From: a virus
Strand: one strand, 5' to 3'
Virus record (IMG/VR): IMGVR_UViG_3300025769_000410
Location: 1 to 34,555 of that record
Length of the DNA stretch: 34,555 bases
Shown here: positions 3,938 through 30,467 of the stretch, in pieces
Layout of the letters: each line of letters begins with the position of its first letter
Position numbering within the stretch: the stretch's first letter is position 1
Position numbers and translations under genes: made by a program
The notes under the pieces: model-generated
Told to the model about the DNA's origin: nothing
What the model saw: the letters and a program-made list of their open reading frames with translations, nothing else
Database searches by the model: none

Positions 3938-4774
3938 ATGTCTAACAAATTCAAGCGCATTGTCGCCTTGGTGTCTGAAGCCATGCAAGATGAGTTAACT
4001 TGGCGGAAGACCTGGCAGTCGCAGTCTGGCCTTCATCAGAATTGGATTAGCAAGCGGCCTTATTCTGGGACCAATCAAATTACCACGATGATATCCGCGT
4101 GGAAGAATGATTATAAAAACCCGTATTGGGTAACGTACAAGCAAGCGCAGGATCTTGGCGGCAACGTTAAGGGGCAGACCGCTACACCTGCAATTTTCTA
4201 CGGCACTGGGGAGGACAAAGACAACGAAAAAACCTACAAGTTTGCCAAGCTATACAACCTCTTTAATCTTGAGCAAATAGGCATTGAGGTTCCGCCTATT
4301 CAATTAAGGCAGACAAAGCTTGAGCGTCCATATGAGATGGCTGATGCGTTACAAGTTAAGGTTGATTCTAATTCATCTCACAACCCTTGTTATTCACCTG
4401 TAACAGACAAGATAAAGATGCCGATGCCTGGGCAGTTTGAGTCTGACGATTCACATCAATCCACTTTTTACCATGAGTGTATTCATTCAACTGGTCACAG
4501 CAAACGACTTGATCGTGAGTTAACAGGCATGTTCGGCAGCGAGGACTATGCAAAAGAAGAGCTTGTTGCTGAGCTTGGCAGTGTCTTCTTGTGTGCAGAG
4601 CTTGGTGTTCAATACAACATAGAGCAACATGCTAGTTACATTCAGTCATGGCAAAAGGCTATTGAGTCTGATGCTAATTACCTACTGACTGCATCATCTG
4701 CCGCACAAAAAGCAGCTGAGTATTGCATGAGTCAGTTCCGAATGATGCGACAGTATGACAATGAAGCTGCGTGA
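3938..4774 (+). CDS. ardC: ArdC-type antirestriction protein with zincin metallopeptidase domain
   Basis: The 278-residue protein matches the ArdC layout. The N-terminal ssDNA-binding domain (about 1-130) includes GTNQITTMISAWKNDYKNPYWVTYKQAQDLGG. The C-terminal zincin domain has the HExxH motif HECIH (His179, Glu180, His183) and a downstream EELVAELGS helix (about 207-215) that would supply the third metal ligand. ArdC proteins of conjugative plasmids protect incoming DNA from restriction. Phage homologues are presumed to do the same. Length is close to that of known members. ATG at 3938 follows AAGGAG, and the gene stands alone between a palindrome and a GC-rich hairpin, consistent with early expression right after DNA entry. 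Key catalytic residues are intact. Confidence 0.85.
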   Translation: MSNKFKRIVALVSEAMQDELTWRKTWQSQSGLHQNWISKRPYSGTNQITTMISAWKNDYKNPYWVTYKQAQDLGGNVKGQTATPAIFYGTGEDKDNEKTYKFAKLYNLFNLEQIGIEVPPIQLRQTKLERPYEMADALQVKVDSNSSHNPCYSPVTDKIKMPMPGQFESDDSHQSTFYHECIHSTGHSKRLDRELTGMFGSEDYAKEELVAELGSVFLCAELGVQYNIEQHASYIQSWQKAIESDANYLLTASSAAQKAAEYCMSQFRMMRQYDNEAA

Positions 4775-15149: not shown

Positions 15150-16466
15150 CTATCTCCAAATGCCTGTGTAATCAACTTGGTAGTAACCGCTGTCATGCAG
15201 GCTTACTCGGTCAGGATGTGTCTTTATAAGCTCCTGGGCCAACACGCCAACTTCAGAGCCAAGCTCGCCAAGCTTGTTAGCTTTGTCATTCCAATCCCAC
15301 TTGTAAATATTAAAGCCTTGTTGGTTTGTGCCAACAAACTCAACATTGTCTTTAAGCCGAACATCTGATATTTGTTTTATGATGTTATTAACAAAGTCAA
15401 ACAACCCGCCACTACCGCTACTTGCACCAGCCGCTAATACGCCGGCACCAACATTGCCAATTAAATTAGCCTGACCAAGACCTGACGCAAGTGCCGCATC
15501 TACCCCTGTCATAGTTGCTTCACCAAACATTCCAGTACCAAACTGTTGAGCTTGCTGAGCCAGCTTGCTGGTAGCAATGCCCTGCTGAAGTGCATTAAGT
15601 GACATAGCTTCTGGTACAAACGCGCCTTTAGTGGCGGCAAGTGCTTGCTGAAGTTGAGCGGCATTAAGAGCTTGTTCTCCGCTAAGCATTCCCAGGCCGG
15701 CATCGGCAAACTGAAGCCCTCTGGTCTGCCTTCCAGTAATTAGATCTTGTGCGGCCTGCCCAAGCCCCGCTCCGGTTGATGCAAACTGCGTTCCCAGCTG
15801 ACCAGCTAACTGTCTTTCCGCCTGGGATTGCTGCATAGCTTGAATCATTGCCGTGTTTTGGGCTTCGGCTCTTGCCTTGTCTAAAGACAATTGCTCTGGC
15901 GTTCCACCATAAAGGTTTGTAGAAACTCCAAGCCTTCCTTGAGATGCCAGCCGCTCTTCCAATTGAAGCCTTTGCCGTTCTTCTTCTGGTGTCTGAGCCG
16001 CCCTTATCCTGCTATAAATGTCTTGCTCTCTTACAGTTGGATCTGCCATTGCCTCATCCATCAAAGCATAAGACCCTAACAATCCTTGTCTTGCGGCTTT
16101 TTCTGTCGGCAGCAACGTAGGAAGATTTCTTGATAACTCTGGCGCAGACCTTCCTAAAAAATCTAACCCCATAGCCCCAGTTTGAACAGATCCAAAAGCA
16201 GGGCCAATGTTAAAAAGCGCCTCTCCAAGCAATGCATCTTGAACCTGTTTAGCAGTCCCAGTTGCTCCAGCCGTTAAGCTTCCCCCAGCGCCAATAGAAG
16301 ACCTGCCAGTTCCTGTTGATACAGTAAATGGTTGAAACTTAGACTGAGCTAAAGCCAGGCTTGCAAGAGTGTTCGCATCTGTTTGAGCCGCAGCACCAAC
16401 ATCTCCAAGCTTGTTATAAGCCGCATTAATCGCGGCTAACCCAGTTATATCACCAAAAAGCGACAT
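15150..16466 (-). CDS. Virion protein with C-terminal S74-type intramolecular chaperone domain
   Basis: The 438-residue protein is Ala/Gln/Gly-rich and helical over residues 1-350 (for example LEERLASQGRLGVSTNLYGG), as in internal or injection proteins. The C-terminal 80 residues read ISDVRLKDNVEFVG, then YKWDWND, GVLAQELIKTHPDRV and YYQVDYTGIWR. This is the peptidase S74 / intramolecular chaperone pattern with the Ser-Asp-x-Arg-Leu-Lys dyad motif, normally found on tail spikes and fibres. Finding it on an internal-type protein suggests assisted trimerisation. Its ATG shares one base with the preceding TGA. It is one of two S74-like domains here; the other ends the 988-aa fibre. Confidence 0.72.
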   Translation of the reverse strand: MSLFGDITGLAAINAAYNKLGDVGAAAQTDANTLASLALAQSKFQPFTVSTGTGRSSIGAGGSLTAGATGTAKQVQDALLGEALFNIGPAFGSVQTGAMGLDFLGRSAPELSRNLPTLLPTEKAARQGLLGSYALMDEAMADPTVREQDIYSRIRAAQTPEEERQRLQLEERLASQGRLGVSTNLYGGTPEQLSLDKARAEAQNTAMIQAMQQSQAERQLAGQLGTQFASTGAGLGQAAQDLITGRQTRGLQFADAGLGMLSGEQALNAAQLQQALAATKGAFVPEAMSLNALQQGIATSKLAQQAQQFGTGMFGEATMTGVDAALASGLGQANLIGNVGAGVLAAGASSGSGGLFDFVNNIIKQISDVRLKDNVEFVGTNQQGFNIYKWDWNDKANKLGELGSEVGVLAQELIKTHPDRVSLHDSGYYQVDYTGIWR

Positions 16467-18242: not shown

Positions 18243-18902
18243 CTATGGTGTATAAAAGATTGTTTCTTCAGGGTGTTTTTGTGCATCTAGCGCAATAGCA
18301 TCAGACAAGTATTTATCTGCAATAGAAAAGTATTCTGCTGTTGATGTTCCTCCAGTTTCACCCCGCTCTCTAGCTAACAAAGCAACCGCCAAATGAATGA
18401 CAGGCTGGCTAGGAACCGCAAGCGTGTCATCATCGCCGCTCAATGCGGTTTTGCGTATAACAATTCTAGACTTTAAGGAGTACACGCCATCTGGCTTGGG
18501 GTAAATATCAATTTGCGTGTCACCATTTGCATCAACCCCGTTGTATGTGTAGTACTCGGGCGCGCCTGACGCTGGGGTTTGGACTAAAAACTTATCATCA
18601 AACCAGTTCTGGGTTTGATATTCCATTCTTAAATTAGAGGTGTCGTTGATTATATTTAACACTTTTCCTTTGTCACCGCTCCCTGTTAACGAATAAGTAA
18701 AGTCCCCAGATGACGTTGTAATTGTTAATGGCGAGCCTGACGTAGTTCTTAGCGCAGACCAATCCCATGCCGATTCAACAATTTCTTTTGCATCATTTAC
18801 AAAATCACCCACCATCGTGCTGTAAGTATCGTTTGTAACAGTTGGAACTGTATCTTCGCGCAGCCGTCTTAATACATTGTTAACTAAATTTAAATATGTC
18901 AT
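18243..18902 (-). CDS. Tail tubular protein A-like head-tail adaptor
   Basis: The 219-residue protein begins MTYLNLVNNVLRRLREDTVP and continues with YSTMVGDFVNDAKEIVESAW, DWSALRT. This is the signature of the gp11-like adaptor family: a helical N-terminus with 'VN.AK..VE.AWDW'. Later strands include SLKSRIVIRKTALSGDDDTL and a C-terminal helical part (LAVALLARERGETGG). Twelve such subunits connect the portal to the nozzle in T7-like tails. The start overlaps the stop of the acidic repeat gene (ATGA). Confidence 0.82.
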   Translation of the reverse strand: MTYLNLVNNVLRRLREDTVPTVTNDTYSTMVGDFVNDAKEIVESAWDWSALRTTSGSPLTITTSSGDFTYSLTGSGDKGKVLNIINDTSNLRMEYQTQNWFDDKFLVQTPASGAPEYYTYNGVDANGDTQIDIYPKPDGVYSLKSRIVIRKTALSGDDDTLAVPSQPVIHLAVALLARERGETGGTSTAEYFSIADKYLSDAIALDAQKHPEETIFYTP

Positions 18903-21871
18903 GTAAACATTCCGCCAGAATTTCGCTTAATAACGTCGTCAAGAATCTCTCCTGAACTCATGTTTTCCAGCTTAGCAACGTAATCTTCATTAAACACATT
19001 AAGATCTTGCATTTCTGGAACTTGAAAATTTAATCGATAATCAAAGTTAGTGGCTTTTGGTACAGAAGATAACCCGCCAGAAGATCCTCCCCCATCATCC
19101 TTGTCGCCAAAGCCAAATGCCTCCATTAAAGCATCTTCCCCTCCAGGATCTTTATCTGCATTTTCAGGATCTTTTGTCCCAATAACATCAAGTGCAGGCT
19201 CTGGATCTTTTGTTGCTATTTCTTCGTTTGCATCCTCCCCGCCTTCCTTGTCATCTCCAGCGCCTAACTCTGGCTCTTTTTCTTTTGCCTCTGTTTCAGC
19301 GTCCTTCCCATTAATTATTTCGTAAACAGTTTCAGCGTCTTTTATAGGATTAGCGGCAGCTTCTTCTTGAGTCTCGCCATCCTTGTCTTCATTAAGATCT
19401 TCGTCACCTTCTCCGTCTTTTGTTGCTGGATCTTGGGTTTCGCCAGGATCTTTATTTCCAATTAAATCTTGATAGGTTTCGGCATCCTTAACGGGATTGT
19501 TTAATATTTCAGCCTCTGTTTCACCATCTTTATTATTAGGATCAGTGTCTTCAGTTTCGCCATCTTTTACTTCTGGGCTATCTGTTTCTTGCTCTCCATC
19601 TTTTCCATCAATAACATCAGCACCAGTCTCTCCATCCTTGGTCGGATTGTTTTCTCTTTCTTCTTGGCTTTCTCCGTCTTTAACTGGATTATTTTCTCTT
19701 TCTTCTTGGGTTTCGCCGTCTTGCCCGCCATCTTTGTTATCAAAAATAATATCAATGATGTCTTGGAAAAACCCCTCAGAGTCTTTATCGGCAATATCTT
19801 CATCTTCAGACTCCCCGTCTTTTGTGTCAGGATCTACGTCCTCTGATTCGCCATCACCGTCGTCATCACCGTCACCATCATCACCATCTTTTGTATCAGG
19901 ATCTACGTCTTCTGTTTCTCCATCCTTAGTAGTGTCTGCAAAGGCGGTGTCTTCTGCGTCTTTATCAATGCCTGCATTATTTGCAACATTTTCTGCTGTA
20001 TCTTTTTCTAGCTGCTCAGCTGCATCGTCATCTTTGTCTTTTTCTGCTTGTTCATCGCCTTCTTTTTGTGCATCTTCTGCATCAGTATCTTTTTGTTGTT
20101 TCTCAGCATTATCTTTTTCGGTTTGCTCCCCTTCTTTTTCTGCCGACTCAGCATCTTTTCCGCTTTGTTCTGAATCTTTTTCTTGCTGCTCTACCTGATC
20201 CTTTTGATCTTGCTCGGCCTGTGCATCTTTATCTGCCTCAGCGTCTTTATCTTTTTCAGCAGACTCATCAGCATCCTTGTCTTTTTCTGTTTCTTCTTGA
20301 GCGTCCTTGTCTTTCTCGGCGCTTTCGTTATTTTTCTCTTCGTTTTCTGCATCTTTTTCTGCCGACTCGGCATCTTTTTCTTCTTGCTCTGTTGCCGCAT
20401 CCTTTTCTTGCTGCTCAGCATCATCGTCTTTGCGTTTTTGCTCTGAGTCTTTTTCGTCTGTTTCGGCCTGATCTTTATCCGCCTGCTCAGCATCCTTTTC
20501 TTGTTGCTCTGCTTGAGTTTCCTTGCTGTCTTTTTCGCCTTGCTCAGCATCTTTTTCTTTCTTTTCTGACTGAGCGTCCTTATCCGCCTGCTCAGAATCC
20601 TTGCTTTCTTGCTCCGCGTCCTTTTGGTCTTGCTCAGCTTGATCTTTGCTTTGTTGTTCAGAATCCGCATCCTTTGCGGCTTGCTCTGCATCTTTGTCTT
20701 TTTGCTCAGCAGAGTCCTTTGCTTGCTGCTCAGCCTGTTCGTCTTTTAATTGTTGCTCTGCATCCTTTTGATCTTCTTCTGCGTCCTTTGTTTCAGTTTC
20801 AGCATCCTTGTCTTTTTCGGCATCTTCTGCATCTTTTTGTTTTTCTTCTGCGGCATCTTTGTTCGATTGCTCAGTATCTTTGTCAGCCTGCTCAGCATCC
20901 TTGTCAGACTTTTCAGCAGCATCTTTTTCGGATTGTTCAGCTTGATCTTTGTCGGCCTGTTCAGCCTCGTCTTTTTCTACCTGTTCGGCATCATCTTTTT
21001 GCTGTTGCTCAGCGTCATCTTTTTCTTGTTGCTCTGCTTGATCTTTTTCTAACTGCTCAGCCGCATCTTTGTCAGCCTGCTCCTGGGCATCCTTATCTGC
21101 TTGTTCTGCGTCCTTATCAGTTTTTTCAGCCGCATCTTTTTTTTCCTGCTCAGCCGCATCTTTGTCTGCATTTTCGGCTTCTTTGTTTGTTCGCTCAGCC
21201 TCATCTTTTTGCTGTTGTTCAGCCTGGTCTTTTTGATTCTGCTCAGCCTCATCCTTAGCAGTTTGCTCAGCCTCATCCTTTTGATCTTGCTCCGCATTAT
21301 CCTTTGCAGCATTTTCAATTTCTTTGCTAGATTGCTCAGCATCTTTTGCTTCTTGCTCAGCATTACTGTCCTTAACTTTTTGCTCAGAATCTTTTTCTTG
21401 CTCTTCTGCGTCTTTGTCTTTTTCTGATTCTGTATCTTTAGCCTCAAGCTCCGCGTCTTTATCTTTTTCGTCTTCAGCAAAATCTTTTTCTTGTTGTTCT
21501 GTATCCTTTGTAGCTATCTCCGCATCTTTATCTATTTCAGAATCTTTGTCTTTTTCTGTTTCGGCTTGATCTTTTTCTAGCTGCTCTGCCGAATCGTCGT
21601 CAGTAGTATCGTCATCTACATCAGAATCTTTTTGATCTTGTTCTGCATCCTTGTCATTTTGCTCTGCTTCATGAAGCTTTAGTATTGCTGCATAACGCTC
21701 AATTAGCTGTATTCTGCTTAAGCCTTGAGTGTTAAAAGTTGCAAAACCTGGAGCAACGCCAAGATCAATAAGATCGCGAAGCATTTTGTCAGCTGCTCGT
21801 TTGTAATGCAGATCATCTTCAAGTTCTTTTATTGCCTCTTCTGAGCTGTTTCCGCCATCAAACAACCCCAT
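18899..21871 (-). CDS. Giant acidic KD-repeat protein, probable virion component
   Basis: The 990-residue protein has ordered ends and a repetitive middle. Residues 1-72 are helical (KRAADKMLRDLIDLGVAPGF). About residues 73-640 consist of charged repeats of 7 or 8 residues each containing Lys-Asp, for example KDAEQADKD and EQQEKDDAEQQQKD. About 640-910 switch to looser 'KDGET' repeats of about 12 residues with DPDT, ENNPV and similar inserts. About 925-990 is a Gly/Ser linker and an ordered tail ending SGEILDDVIKRNSGGMFT. Net charge is extremely negative, and the 7-8 periodicity with i/i+4 Glu-Lys pairs suggests a long single charged helix. It lies between holin and tail tubular A. No known domain was recognised; a tail-length, ejection or DNA-mimic role is speculative. 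Confidence 0.75.
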   Translation of the reverse strand: MGLFDGGNSSEEAIKELEDDLHYKRAADKMLRDLIDLGVAPGFATFNTQGLSRIQLIERYAAILKLHEAEQNDKDAEQDQKDSDVDDDTTDDDSAEQLEKDQAETEKDKDSEIDKDAEIATKDTEQQEKDFAEDEKDKDAELEAKDTESEKDKDAEEQEKDSEQKVKDSNAEQEAKDAEQSSKEIENAAKDNAEQDQKDEAEQTAKDEAEQNQKDQAEQQQKDEAERTNKEAENADKDAAEQEKKDAAEKTDKDAEQADKDAQEQADKDAAEQLEKDQAEQQEKDDAEQQQKDDAEQVEKDEAEQADKDQAEQSEKDAAEKSDKDAEQADKDTEQSNKDAAEEKQKDAEDAEKDKDAETETKDAEEDQKDAEQQLKDEQAEQQAKDSAEQKDKDAEQAAKDADSEQQSKDQAEQDQKDAEQESKDSEQADKDAQSEKKEKDAEQGEKDSKETQAEQQEKDAEQADKDQAETDEKDSEQKRKDDDAEQQEKDAATEQEEKDAESAEKDAENEEKNNESAEKDKDAQEETEKDKDADESAEKDKDAEADKDAQAEQDQKDQVEQQEKDSEQSGKDAESAEKEGEQTEKDNAEKQQKDTDAEDAQKEGDEQAEKDKDDDAAEQLEKDTAENVANNAGIDKDAEDTAFADTTKDGETEDVDPDTKDGDDGDGDDDGDGESEDVDPDTKDGESEDEDIADKDSEGFFQDIIDIIFDNKDGGQDGETQEERENNPVKDGESQEERENNPTKDGETGADVIDGKDGEQETDSPEVKDGETEDTDPNNKDGETEAEILNNPVKDAETYQDLIGNKDPGETQDPATKDGEGDEDLNEDKDGETQEEAAANPIKDAETVYEIINGKDAETEAKEKEPELGAGDDKEGGEDANEEIATKDPEPALDVIGTKDPENADKDPGGEDALMEAFGFGDKDDGGGSSGGLSSVPKATNFDYRLNFQVPEMQDLNVFNEDYVAKLENMSSGEILDDVIKRNSGGMFT

Positions 21872-21873
21872 GA

Positions 21874-22251
21874 CTACTTACCAGCCTTTAGTTTCATGAG
21901 CTTGTCAGCACCACGTATTCCAAATGACGCAGATACTGCAAGAAACAATAGATACTGATACCAATCTGGAAGAGTATCCAAAGCAGAAAAACTGTCATGA
22001 ACCCTATCAACAATAAAAGGGTCGTCAGCAATGATGCTCCAACCAAGAGCAAATAATGGCACTGCGAGAACAATTGTCCAAAACTCATCTTTCCAGCTAG
22101 ACGCAGACGCGTCAGCCATTTTGCTTTCCCAATCTGCGCCATTTTGTATAACCTGCATCTTAGCCTCATGCTTAGCTTGAGACTGTTGTTGCTTATTGCC
22201 TAGCCATGTTTTAGCTAAGCCAGCAACTGGGCCTATCAATGCTTGCAACAT
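21874..22251 (-). CDS. Holin of the 3-TM (GTA holin-like) family
   Basis: The 125-residue protein matches the Holin_3TMs pattern. An amphipathic start (LIGPVAGLAKTWLGNKQQQS) is followed by the highly characteristic SWKDEFWTIVLAVPLFALGW segment. DTLPDWYQYLLFLAVSASFG then leads into a Lys-rich end. Two strong transmembrane segments (about 58-75 and 95-112) and an N-terminal amphipathic helix are seen. Such holins permeabilise the inner membrane so that the endolysin reaches peptidoglycan; here the M15 enzyme at 61-405 is the likely partner. The gene sits in a membrane-protein cluster (22255-23427) and ends 2 bases before the acidic repeat gene. Confidence 0.82.
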   Translation of the reverse strand: MLQALIGPVAGLAKTWLGNKQQQSQAKHEAKMQVIQNGADWESKMADASASSWKDEFWTIVLAVPLFALGWSIIADDPFIVDRVHDSFSALDTLPDWYQYLLFLAVSASFGIRGADKLMKLKAGK

Positions 22252-22254
22252 ACA

Positions 22255-22542
22255 TTACCTCATTAGGTAAACAATGAGTGAAGCGGCGGTTGTTATTGAA
22301 ATCCAAAACATCCTTTCGCCAAATCGCAAAGAGTTTGAGTTGGTTAGTACGTTATTAGTCAGACCTTTAATATCTTCTGTATGACCATCAATTTGTTTTT
22401 CATGCCGTTCAAGTCGCTTAAATATAGATAACAACCTTTCTTCAATCCGAGCAAAATTAGCCACTGTATCTGACAGCTTATCTAGCTTGTCTTCTATTCT
22501 TTCAAGCCTTTGTTCAGTCACCGCTATAAACCTTTCCATCAT
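22255..22542 (-). CDS. Coiled-coil protein with C-terminal membrane anchor, lysis-associated
   Basis: The start is set at ATG 22542 by AGGA 8 bases upstream; the frame could run to 22626 but only inside the previous gene. The 95-residue product is a continuous heptad coiled coil (about 5-70, ERFIAVTEQRLERIEDKLDK and on), closed by one transmembrane helix (ERMFWISITTAASLIVYLMR). The layout is that of XhlA-type haemolysin-associated or spanin-like lysis proteins, but no clear family match is claimed. It overlaps the secreted 148-aa gene by 29 bp and lies immediately upstream of the holin, so a lysis role is likely. Confidence 0.65.
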   Translation of the reverse strand: MMERFIAVTEQRLERIEDKLDKLSDTVANFARIEERLLSIFKRLERHEKQIDGHTEDIKGLTNNVLTNSNSLRFGERMFWISITTAASLIVYLMR

Positions 22543-22960
22543 TACACCGATCCTGCCATTCAATTTCTTCAAATGACAAAATACCAGTTGGCTCGTAGTA
22601 ATCGCACATGTCGTAAGCGCCGTCATTGTTAATATCGCACTGCCTTTGCCATGTAACCATATTAAACGTCAATCCTTCCGACCAGGGAATATAGCTTTCA
22701 CACCACTGTGCGCTGCCTATAACGCCAACGCCGCCTGTCTCAACATGCACATGATCTTTCTTTGTATTCGGCAGCGTTAAATGAAAAAGAATATCGCCTC
22801 GGCTGTAGGCTTTTGTGTAATAAAGCTTAGAATAATGACTAACGTACACTTTTTCATTGTCTTTAACCGTGTATTGGCTGCCATCATCATACAAAATTAC
22901 TGTATCTGCCGAAACAAACATTGTTGTTACAACAGATACAAAAGCCAATATGTTTTTCAT
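22514..22960 (-). CDS. Secreted protein with calcium-loop-like motif and four cysteines
   Basis: The 148-residue protein has a signal peptide (MKNILAFVSVVTTMFVSA, cleavage likely after Ala18, no lipobox). The mature part starts with strands (TVILYDDGSQYTVKDNEKVY) and contains four cysteines (87, 108, 119, 139), consistent with two disulfides in the periplasm. Residues 109-120 (DINNDGAYDMCD) match the D-x-N-x-D-G-x-x-D calcium loop seen in dockerins and EF-hands. No family was recognised. Placement between two membrane proteins and the holin suggests a periplasmic task in lysis or exclusion. The start overlaps the upstream stop by 4 bp. Confidence 0.68.
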   Translation of the reverse strand: MKNILAFVSVVTTMFVSADTVILYDDGSQYTVKDNEKVYVSHYSKLYYTKAYSRGDILFHLTLPNTKKDHVHVETGGVGVIGSAQWCESYIPWSEGLTFNMVTWQRQCDINNDGAYDMCDYYEPTGILSFEEIEWQDRCNDGKVYSGD

Positions 22961-29623: not shown

Positions 29624-29773
29624 TTATTTGCCTTTGTGAGTTTTTTGAACTTCAAAGTTAGCAGATTGAGAAGCCCCCTTATGTGGCTTGTATCCGCCAG
29701 AAGGATTTTTCATAAGCTTATAACTATTTCCGCTTTTCATCCAATGATAACCATCAGGAGCTTTAACTTTCAT
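29624..29773 (-). CDS. Small basic conserved phage protein (MKVKAPxGYHWMK)
   Basis: The 49-residue protein begins MKVKAPDGYHWMKSGNSYKL and continues with NPSGGYKPHKGASQSANFEV. It is a recognisable small phage family ('APxGxHWMKxGxxYKLM...PHKGAS') with no known function. The ATG at 29773 overlaps the end of the QueC-like gene by 11 bp. It belongs to the cluster of tiny basic late genes. Confidence 0.68.
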   Translation of the reverse strand: MKVKAPDGYHWMKSGNSYKLMKNPSGGYKPHKGASQSANFEVQKTHKGK

Positions 29774-30467
29774 TGTCAAACCTTTTAATGTGCTGCTTCA
29801 TTGCATGTTGCCGCCTACAAGCATGGCACTCGCCACAGGATAAAAATCCGTCTGGCGTTTCACTTGGTCTTCTACACGACCAATACATTTTTTGCAACTG
29901 CTCTGGCATAGCGTAATAAACCCCAAGGCTTCTTTCAAGAGGGGTTTTGCTCATATAGTCAAATGGCGCAGCCCAAACCGGCTTTGATTGTTTATTCATA
30001 AACAAAGCACTCATGACGCCATATGCTTCTGCGCTTTCTTCCTTGCTCATGTTGTAATCGCCGGTAAATATAGCGCATACAGGCTCAGTCATTGTAGATA
30101 TAACCCTTCCAGCCTGAAACAAAGCTAATGACATGTCCCTTCCCCCAGGATATTTAGCCTTGTAAGAATACAAGCAAGATGAAAACTCAAACTCTCGTTG
30201 GTTATCTTTAAGCCAGTTTATGCTTTTATGAATAGCATTTGCTTCTGCTTTAAATCTACCTTCAGAATTATCTAGGTGTATTGAGTGTATGTGTACGTTA
30301 TGCTGTGTATGCTCTAGCAAGCTCCATGCTAACGACACGCTATCCATGCCGCCAGAGTACATAACTATAACCTTTTCTTTTCGTTTGGTTAAAAGCCTAT
30401 GATACTTTGCTGCGGTGTCGAGAGATTCTTTTACTTTTAATTTGTAAATACTTTCTAGTTTGTTCAA
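29763..30467 (-). CDS. queC: QueC-like PP-loop ATPase (7-cyano-7-deazaguanine synthase family)
   Basis: The 234-residue protein has the PP-loop SGGMDS at residues 38-43 after a MY strand. It also has a QueC-like HIHSIHLDNSEGRFKAEANA segment and a C-terminal zinc site made of Cys198, Cys211, Cys214 and Cys217 (SCRRPSE, then CGECHACRR). QueC converts 7-carboxy-7-deazaguanine to preQ0 with ATP and ammonia. Phages use preQ0 derivatives to replace guanine in DNA and evade restriction. Here no QueD, QueE, FolE or DpdA gene is visible, so precursor and insertion would come from the host, or the enzyme has another PP-loop substrate. The start is TTG at 30467 with AGGAGTGAGC just upstream; no ATG exists before the PP-loop. 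It sits unusually inside the virion operon. Confidence 0.75.
   Translation of the reverse strand: MNKLESIYKLKVKESLDTAAKYHRLLTKRKEKVIVMYSGGMDSVSLAWSLLEHTQHNVHIHSIHLDNSEGRFKAEANAIHKSINWLKDNQREFEFSSCLYSYKAKYPGGRDMSLALFQAGRVISTMTEPVCAIFTGDYNMSKEESAEAYGVMSALFMNKQSKPVWAAPFDYMSKTPLERSLGVYYAMPEQLQKMYWSCRRPSETPDGFLSCGECHACRRQHAMKQHIKRFDNES

Follow-up and report, generated by a model that had tools for sequence, protein, structure and literature searches.

Directly before the adaptor gene of an uncultured short-tailed phage lies a gene for a protein of 990 residues, built largely of short units that each carry Lys-Asp (KD), and we asked what such a protein might do in this position and what takes its place in related phages. 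The window, by which we mean the whole stretch of DNA that was analysed, corresponds to a 34,555-base virus record with an SU10/P22-like portal and an SU10-like adaptor, and its capsid is distantly related to that of cyanophage Pf-WMP3. The original prediction, made from the letters of the window, had described the reading frame, its repeats and a tight ATGA junction with the gene for tail tubular A, i.e. the adaptor. Both the frame and the junction, a 4-nt overlap, were found; the frame lies on the minus strand, the plus-strand reading being full of stops. With 8.6% of the window, the gene also takes the share of the genome that had been predicted (nearly 9 percent). A summary of all features can be found in Table 1.

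Table 1. Features of the KD-repeat gene, its neighbours and other genes of the window.
Feature	Position	Strand	Remarks
KD-repeat protein gene, 990 aa	18899-21871	-	ATG start; judged to be an allele at a hypervariable slot
N-terminal region, aa 1-72	21656-21871	-	weakly predicted helical
Array 1, aa 73-632	19976-21655	-	73 KD pairs; consensus AEQxxKD; predicted long charged helices
Region 2, aa 633-925	19097-19975	-	21 KD pairs in KDGE(T) units; Gly/Asp/Pro-rich; predicted disordered
C-terminal region, aa 926-990	18899-19096	-	best conserved part of KD alleles; proposed anchor
ATGA overlap with adaptor start codon	18899-18902	-	4 nt
Adaptor ('tail tubular A')	18243-18902	-	Pfam SU10_adaptor, E 3.7e-11, above cut-off; conserved right flank of slot
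Nozzle-like tail protein, 505 aa	16717-18234	-	phrog_5107; probable role, from gene order and SU10 adaptor/portal matches
Membrane protein, 125 aa, probable holin	21874-22251	-	phrog_2524; relative annotated DUF3154; conserved left flank
XhlA-like protein, 123 aa, coiled coil and membrane segment	22255-22626	-	weak match, below cut-off
148-aa protein of lysis region	22514-22960	-	signal-peptide-like start; several Cys
Fibre, 988 aa	23751-26717	-	tandem 13-residue repeat (TAAELNILDGVTS/T); C-terminal S74 chaperone
438-aa protein	15150-16466		ends in second S74 domain
Internal virion proteins, 513 and 1085 aa	10400-15146	-	1085-aa protein with lysozyme-like region
PP-loop protein, QueC-like match	29763-30467	-	E 4.6e-5, just above Pfam cut-off; among head genes; possibly a nucleotide or DNA-modification enzyme
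ArdC-like anti-restriction protein	3938-4774	+	ArdcN and MPTase-PolyVal metallopeptidase domains

The KD-repeat gene and its surroundings

The KD richness of the protein proved to be real: it contains 94 KD dipeptides where shuffling gives 22 (the maximum of 2000 shuffles was 36), and 94 of its 119 Lys residues are followed by Asp. The net charge is -232. The predicted run of more than 500 residues of short KD repeats corresponds to array 1 (560 aa), in which KD pairs are mostly spaced by 7 and 8 residues, with a mean of 7.6 and a Fourier peak at 7.76 (K power of 19 versus a null maximum of 11). The second repeat type, with KDGE(T) units, was recovered as region 2 (293 aa), where a KD spacing of 12 is the commonest. 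Ordered ends had been claimed as well, and for these AlphaFold2 agreed in part, placing some helix at both ends (aa 9-36 and 53-78, pLDDT about 35-63; aa 964-984, pLDDT about 60-70), albeit at low confidence. Within the gene there are no exact DNA repeats of at least 24 nt, which indicates that it is not a young slippage array. Since all 2973 nt of the gene are, moreover, identical in a contig separate from the window (L002), a collapsed or expanded assembly is unlikely.

In the closest records by capsid (the cyanophage Pf-WMP3 group, at about 31%, and MedDCM-OCT-S30-C28), no such gene lies between capsid and adaptor. In the lysis region, no endolysin gene was recognised near the gene for the 148-aa protein, which is replaced by a 267-aa lipoprotein-like gene in three other loci (L030-L032).

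Whole-gene replacement before the adaptor

To examine the position before the adaptor in other phages, loci were taken from an adaptor-alignment scan of IMG/VR. Among the best 80 of 591 confirmed stretches, 79 had a readable upstream gene; the phage group is larger than the loci scanned. At these 79 loci, a long gene for an acidic protein nearly always precedes the adaptor, and in 69 of them the upstream gene overlaps the adaptor gene by 4 nt. Complete slot genes (n=56) encode 227-1278 aa. By type, 6 loci carry KD alleles, 32 Cys-rich alleles and 41 other alleles, with EGF-like Cys (cEGF), RTX nonapeptide and DUF4214 modules as well as GDGTG, TDT, PPTGPEG and EEEDEDDPLG repeats in the non-KD types. 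In one locus (L055, 122-1556), GDGTG repeats come after a near-perfect TDTTDT array, giving in all about 200 aa of simple repeats. The comparison also showed that slot acidity holds for complete genes whatever their sequence type, with a median net charge per residue of -0.117 versus -0.030 for the other ORFs of the same contigs (P of 7e-23, a value that overstates independence). The slot proteins show no conspicuous signal peptide or membrane segment and would therefore be released by lysis or in the virion.

Alignment of closely related phages showed whole-gene replacement between conserved flanks. The DNA of the window and that of L037 is 93% identical to 3 nt before the start codon, then shares nothing within the gene, and similarity (80%) resumes from 15 nt before the gene end; the holins and adaptors are 98% and 96% identical, and the slot genes are unrelated. 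The same swap pattern was seen between L101 and L100, with flanks of 99.3% and 98.8%. In adaptor pairs that are 95-100% identical, the median identity of the slot proteins is 21% at the N-terminus and 33% at the C-terminus (56 complete genes), and the KD array is wholly absent in sister phages with a nearly identical adaptor. N-terminal modularity was apparent from a module common to a KD allele (L064) and the non-KD allele of L037 (71% over 80 aa), and from modules that cross types in L034/L066 (47% over 113 aa) and L027/L089 (52% over 44 aa). Judged from these comparisons, a group of uncultured short-tailed phages has a hypervariable, modular slot here, of which the KD protein represents one allele. 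This slot is one of several variable sites, as sister phages also show poor conservation of the fibre and of the internal virion proteins (513 and 1085 aa); in a relative whose adaptor is 96% identical (L121), the two internal proteins are largely replaced.

KD alleles were also collected by a C-terminus search of IMG/VR contigs. Complete ones include proteins of 474, 525, 642, 683, 709, 738, 760, 777, 990, 992 and 1007 aa, and those found always lie directly before the adaptor. Conservation is seen over their C-terminal 55-80 aa (50-94% to the L008 type), with the ending ..DYxAxLE....LDDxIKRNSGGMFT. We checked whether the shared C-terminal letters are a mere Shine-Dalgarno site of the adaptor gene, and this is not general. 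The N-terminal aa 1-72 of the window protein are 99-100% identical in its three nearest relatives and 89% in L005, and unlike the N-termini of other alleles. Related ends with different allele lengths, which the original prediction had suggested looking for, were found for the C-terminus; the N-termini differ. In three KD alleles (L028 2299-3720, L013 6618-8192 and L046 1275-3605), a small Cys module (W..SFCPSGYS...C.P) sits inside the KD array and resembles the Cys modules of non-KD alleles.

Constraint on the KD pairs and predicted structure

Comparison of the window with its nearest distinct allele, L003, showed an extreme constraint on the KD pairs. On the 140 KD codons of array 1 there were 44 synonymous and 0 nonsynonymous changes, an exact zero that should be taken cautiously because the window sequence defined the KD positions and the alignment may be biased towards KD columns. 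The other array 1 codons had a dN of 0.088, and dN/dS was about 0.06 in both arrays. Across KD alleles, Arg-Asp hardly occurs and Lys-Glu reaches about a tenth to a quarter of the Lys-Asp frequency, a strictness that charge alone would not demand. Such near-absolute conservation of Lys-Asp amid drifting fillers is an unusual selection signature, which calls for a biochemical cause.

A very long single charged helix had been proposed, and the computed properties of array 1 make a charged single helix plausible there, whereas region 2 looks disordered. With KD positions fixed, array 1 has 69 E/D-to-K pairs at i+4 versus 34 expected (z 9.3), a pattern that is present in most long KD alleles and lacking in L028, L030 and L046. 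Its composition includes 20% Asp, 14% Gln, almost no Arg, 1% Gly plus Pro and 2.5% non-Ala hydrophobics, and it has no hydrophobic seam. AlphaFold2 placed helices at aa 161-324, 359-444, 449-521 and 547-632 with a pLDDT of about 80-90, to be read with the proviso that the program can over-call helices on charged low-complexity sequence; the overall pTM was 0.25. For a second KD allele (L064) the predicted helices were shorter and of lower confidence. Region 2, with 17% Gly plus Pro, gave no i+4 signal and a pLDDT below 50. With a period of 7.76, and not 7.0 or 7.2, the KD pairs would not form a straight stripe along an alpha-helix, and this idea was rejected.

A candidate exchangeable tether

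We consider a virion-anchored, exchangeable tether or adhesin to be the best explanation for the slot protein, and give this reading, in which virion location and function are both inferred, roughly even chances of being correct. It is based on the fixed position, the adaptor overlap, the extracellular-type modules of other alleles, the whole-gene replacement, the better conserved C-terminus and the absence of a signal peptide. Slot acidity, the conservation of KD codons and the docking of long fibres on the SU10 adaptor speak for it as well. The KD protein would be made late and belong to the virion, where it would dock by its C-terminal segment on the adjacent adaptor or nozzle. The repeat region would then form an extended acidic tether, consisting of a charged rod and a flexible part in the KD allele, and the variable N-terminal module would meet the environment or the host surface. 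Gene exchange would in this way change surface specificity, as tail-fibre swaps do. Like tail fibres, the slot is hypervariable between otherwise near-identical phages. The tether idea is thereby the part of the earlier interpretation that survived best, with the swap, the modularity and the adaptor-side position in its favour and presence in the virion presumed.

Several observations weaken this reading. A fibre with an S74 chaperone is already encoded elsewhere in the genome, the slot adjoins a probable holin gene and may have a role in lysis, and a single docking motif is made less plausible by the last 60 aa, which differ even between some closely related phages. The same applies to the outcome of the homology searches with the slot proteins. 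No isolate among 50,697 phage records has the locus, as tblastn against these records gave no match with the whole KD protein, its C-terminus or the non-KD alleles L058 and L110. The KD protein had no match in Pfam, PHROGs or, by sequence, the PDB, with no fibre or receptor-binding domain homology in any of the three, and Foldseek of its model gave nothing significant; the adaptor profile likewise had no PDB match. An adaptor scan of 84,980 prokaryote genomes found no relative and so gave no hint of the host, and the papers searched on KD or acidic repeat phage proteins and on DUF4214 and phage tails contained nothing on the slot or the KD type.

Alternatively, the protein could be an internal or an ejected part of the virion, or act late inside the cell, and its acidic array could imitate nucleic acid or bind basic proteins of host or phage as a counter-defence or DNA-packaging aid. 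The acidity of all complete slot alleles agrees with this, and the variable internal virion proteins encoded downstream demonstrate that variability is not unique to surface proteins. We nevertheless hold it to be improbable, as the EGF-like, RTX and Cys-rich modules of other alleles suit an oxidising, Ca-rich outside, and a pure negative-charge mimic would not need a strict K-D pair with Lys kept throughout. Nothing specific supports DNA mimicry: the N-terminal module of L064 has a confident predicted fold (pLDDT about 88), for which the DNA mimic Ugi was the top weak Foldseek match (E 0.37), and re-alignment fell below Z 2. The chances also seem poor for a non-virion lysis or cell-surface factor that is made with the holin and, for example, blocks receptors or binds debris after release at lysis. 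The KD gene does come immediately after the genes for the holin-like and XhlA-like proteins, at a distance of 2 nt, and both flanks are conserved, but its translational overlap is with the adaptor and not with the holin, and neither a signal peptide nor a membrane segment is present.

In favour of a molecular ruler for tail or core length, as suggested in the original prediction, array 1 in a largely helical state would reach a length of roughly 60-80 nm. For the tail we reject this role, since KD alleles vary from 474 to 1007 aa beside an adaptor of 215-219 aa and a nozzle of about 505 aa, both constant in length, and sister phages have no array at all; overall, a ruler is very improbable. 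It is hardly more credible that the repeats are low-complexity filler, neutral and free to expand by replication slippage. Repeat number varies widely among relatives, as such a filler would, yet the lack of long exact DNA repeats, the low dN/dS in both arrays, the absence of nonsynonymous changes at KD codons and the non-random E-to-K placement at i+4 all speak against it.

With the exchangeable tether as the preferred reading, the slot can be set beside known systems. In marine phages, variability at host-recognition modules is already known: variable host-recognition genes and metaviromic islands have been described for them, as have tail fibres in which a repeat stretch specific to the allele accompanies one conserved and one variable end (Mizuno et al. 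2014, PMC3909814). As in these islands, a gene-sized region is replaced between conserved flanks; in contrast to those fibres, the conserved end of the slot protein is its C-terminus and the variable end its N-terminus, it has no lectin, C1q or fibre domain, and its gene immediately precedes that of the adaptor. The adaptor of phage SU10 carries docking sites for long fibres, and gp12, the long tail fibre proximal protein, docks by its N-terminus and has a coiled-coil trimer (PMC9509320). A KD tether would resemble gp12 as a long thin appendage docked on an adaptor that belongs to the Pfam family of the SU10 one, but the KD array is almost without hydrophobics and there is no detectable homology. 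Natural single alpha-helix domains have a Glu/Lys/Arg composition, and de novo versions consist of AEEEKKK heptads (PMC5347031). Array 1 shares with these domains the seven-residue Ala/Glu/Lys-rich units, the Glu-Lys salt-bridge spacing and the missing hydrophobic seam, and differs from them in its far higher Asp content, its Gln content, its near lack of Arg, its net negative charge, its far greater length and its Lys fixed beside Asp instead of Glu.

More tentatively, and with the odds in our view against it, the slot proteins could constitute a new appendage class of C-terminally anchored, sequence-unrelated acidic tethers that are swapped whole at the adaptor slot, with KD as a multivalent recognition or modification motif in about 90 copies. 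The tether repeats of such a class may be of the charged helix, EGF-like, RTX, collagen-like and TDT kinds. In an uncultured group with hundreds of IMG/VR contigs, the slot adds a second hypervariable site to that of the tail fibre, and host interaction there may therefore depend on a protein without a name in any database. With unrelated whole repeat architectures at one genetic position, it also constitutes a natural experiment for testing which properties (charge, length, stiffness or calcium binding) are required of an extended acidic tether.
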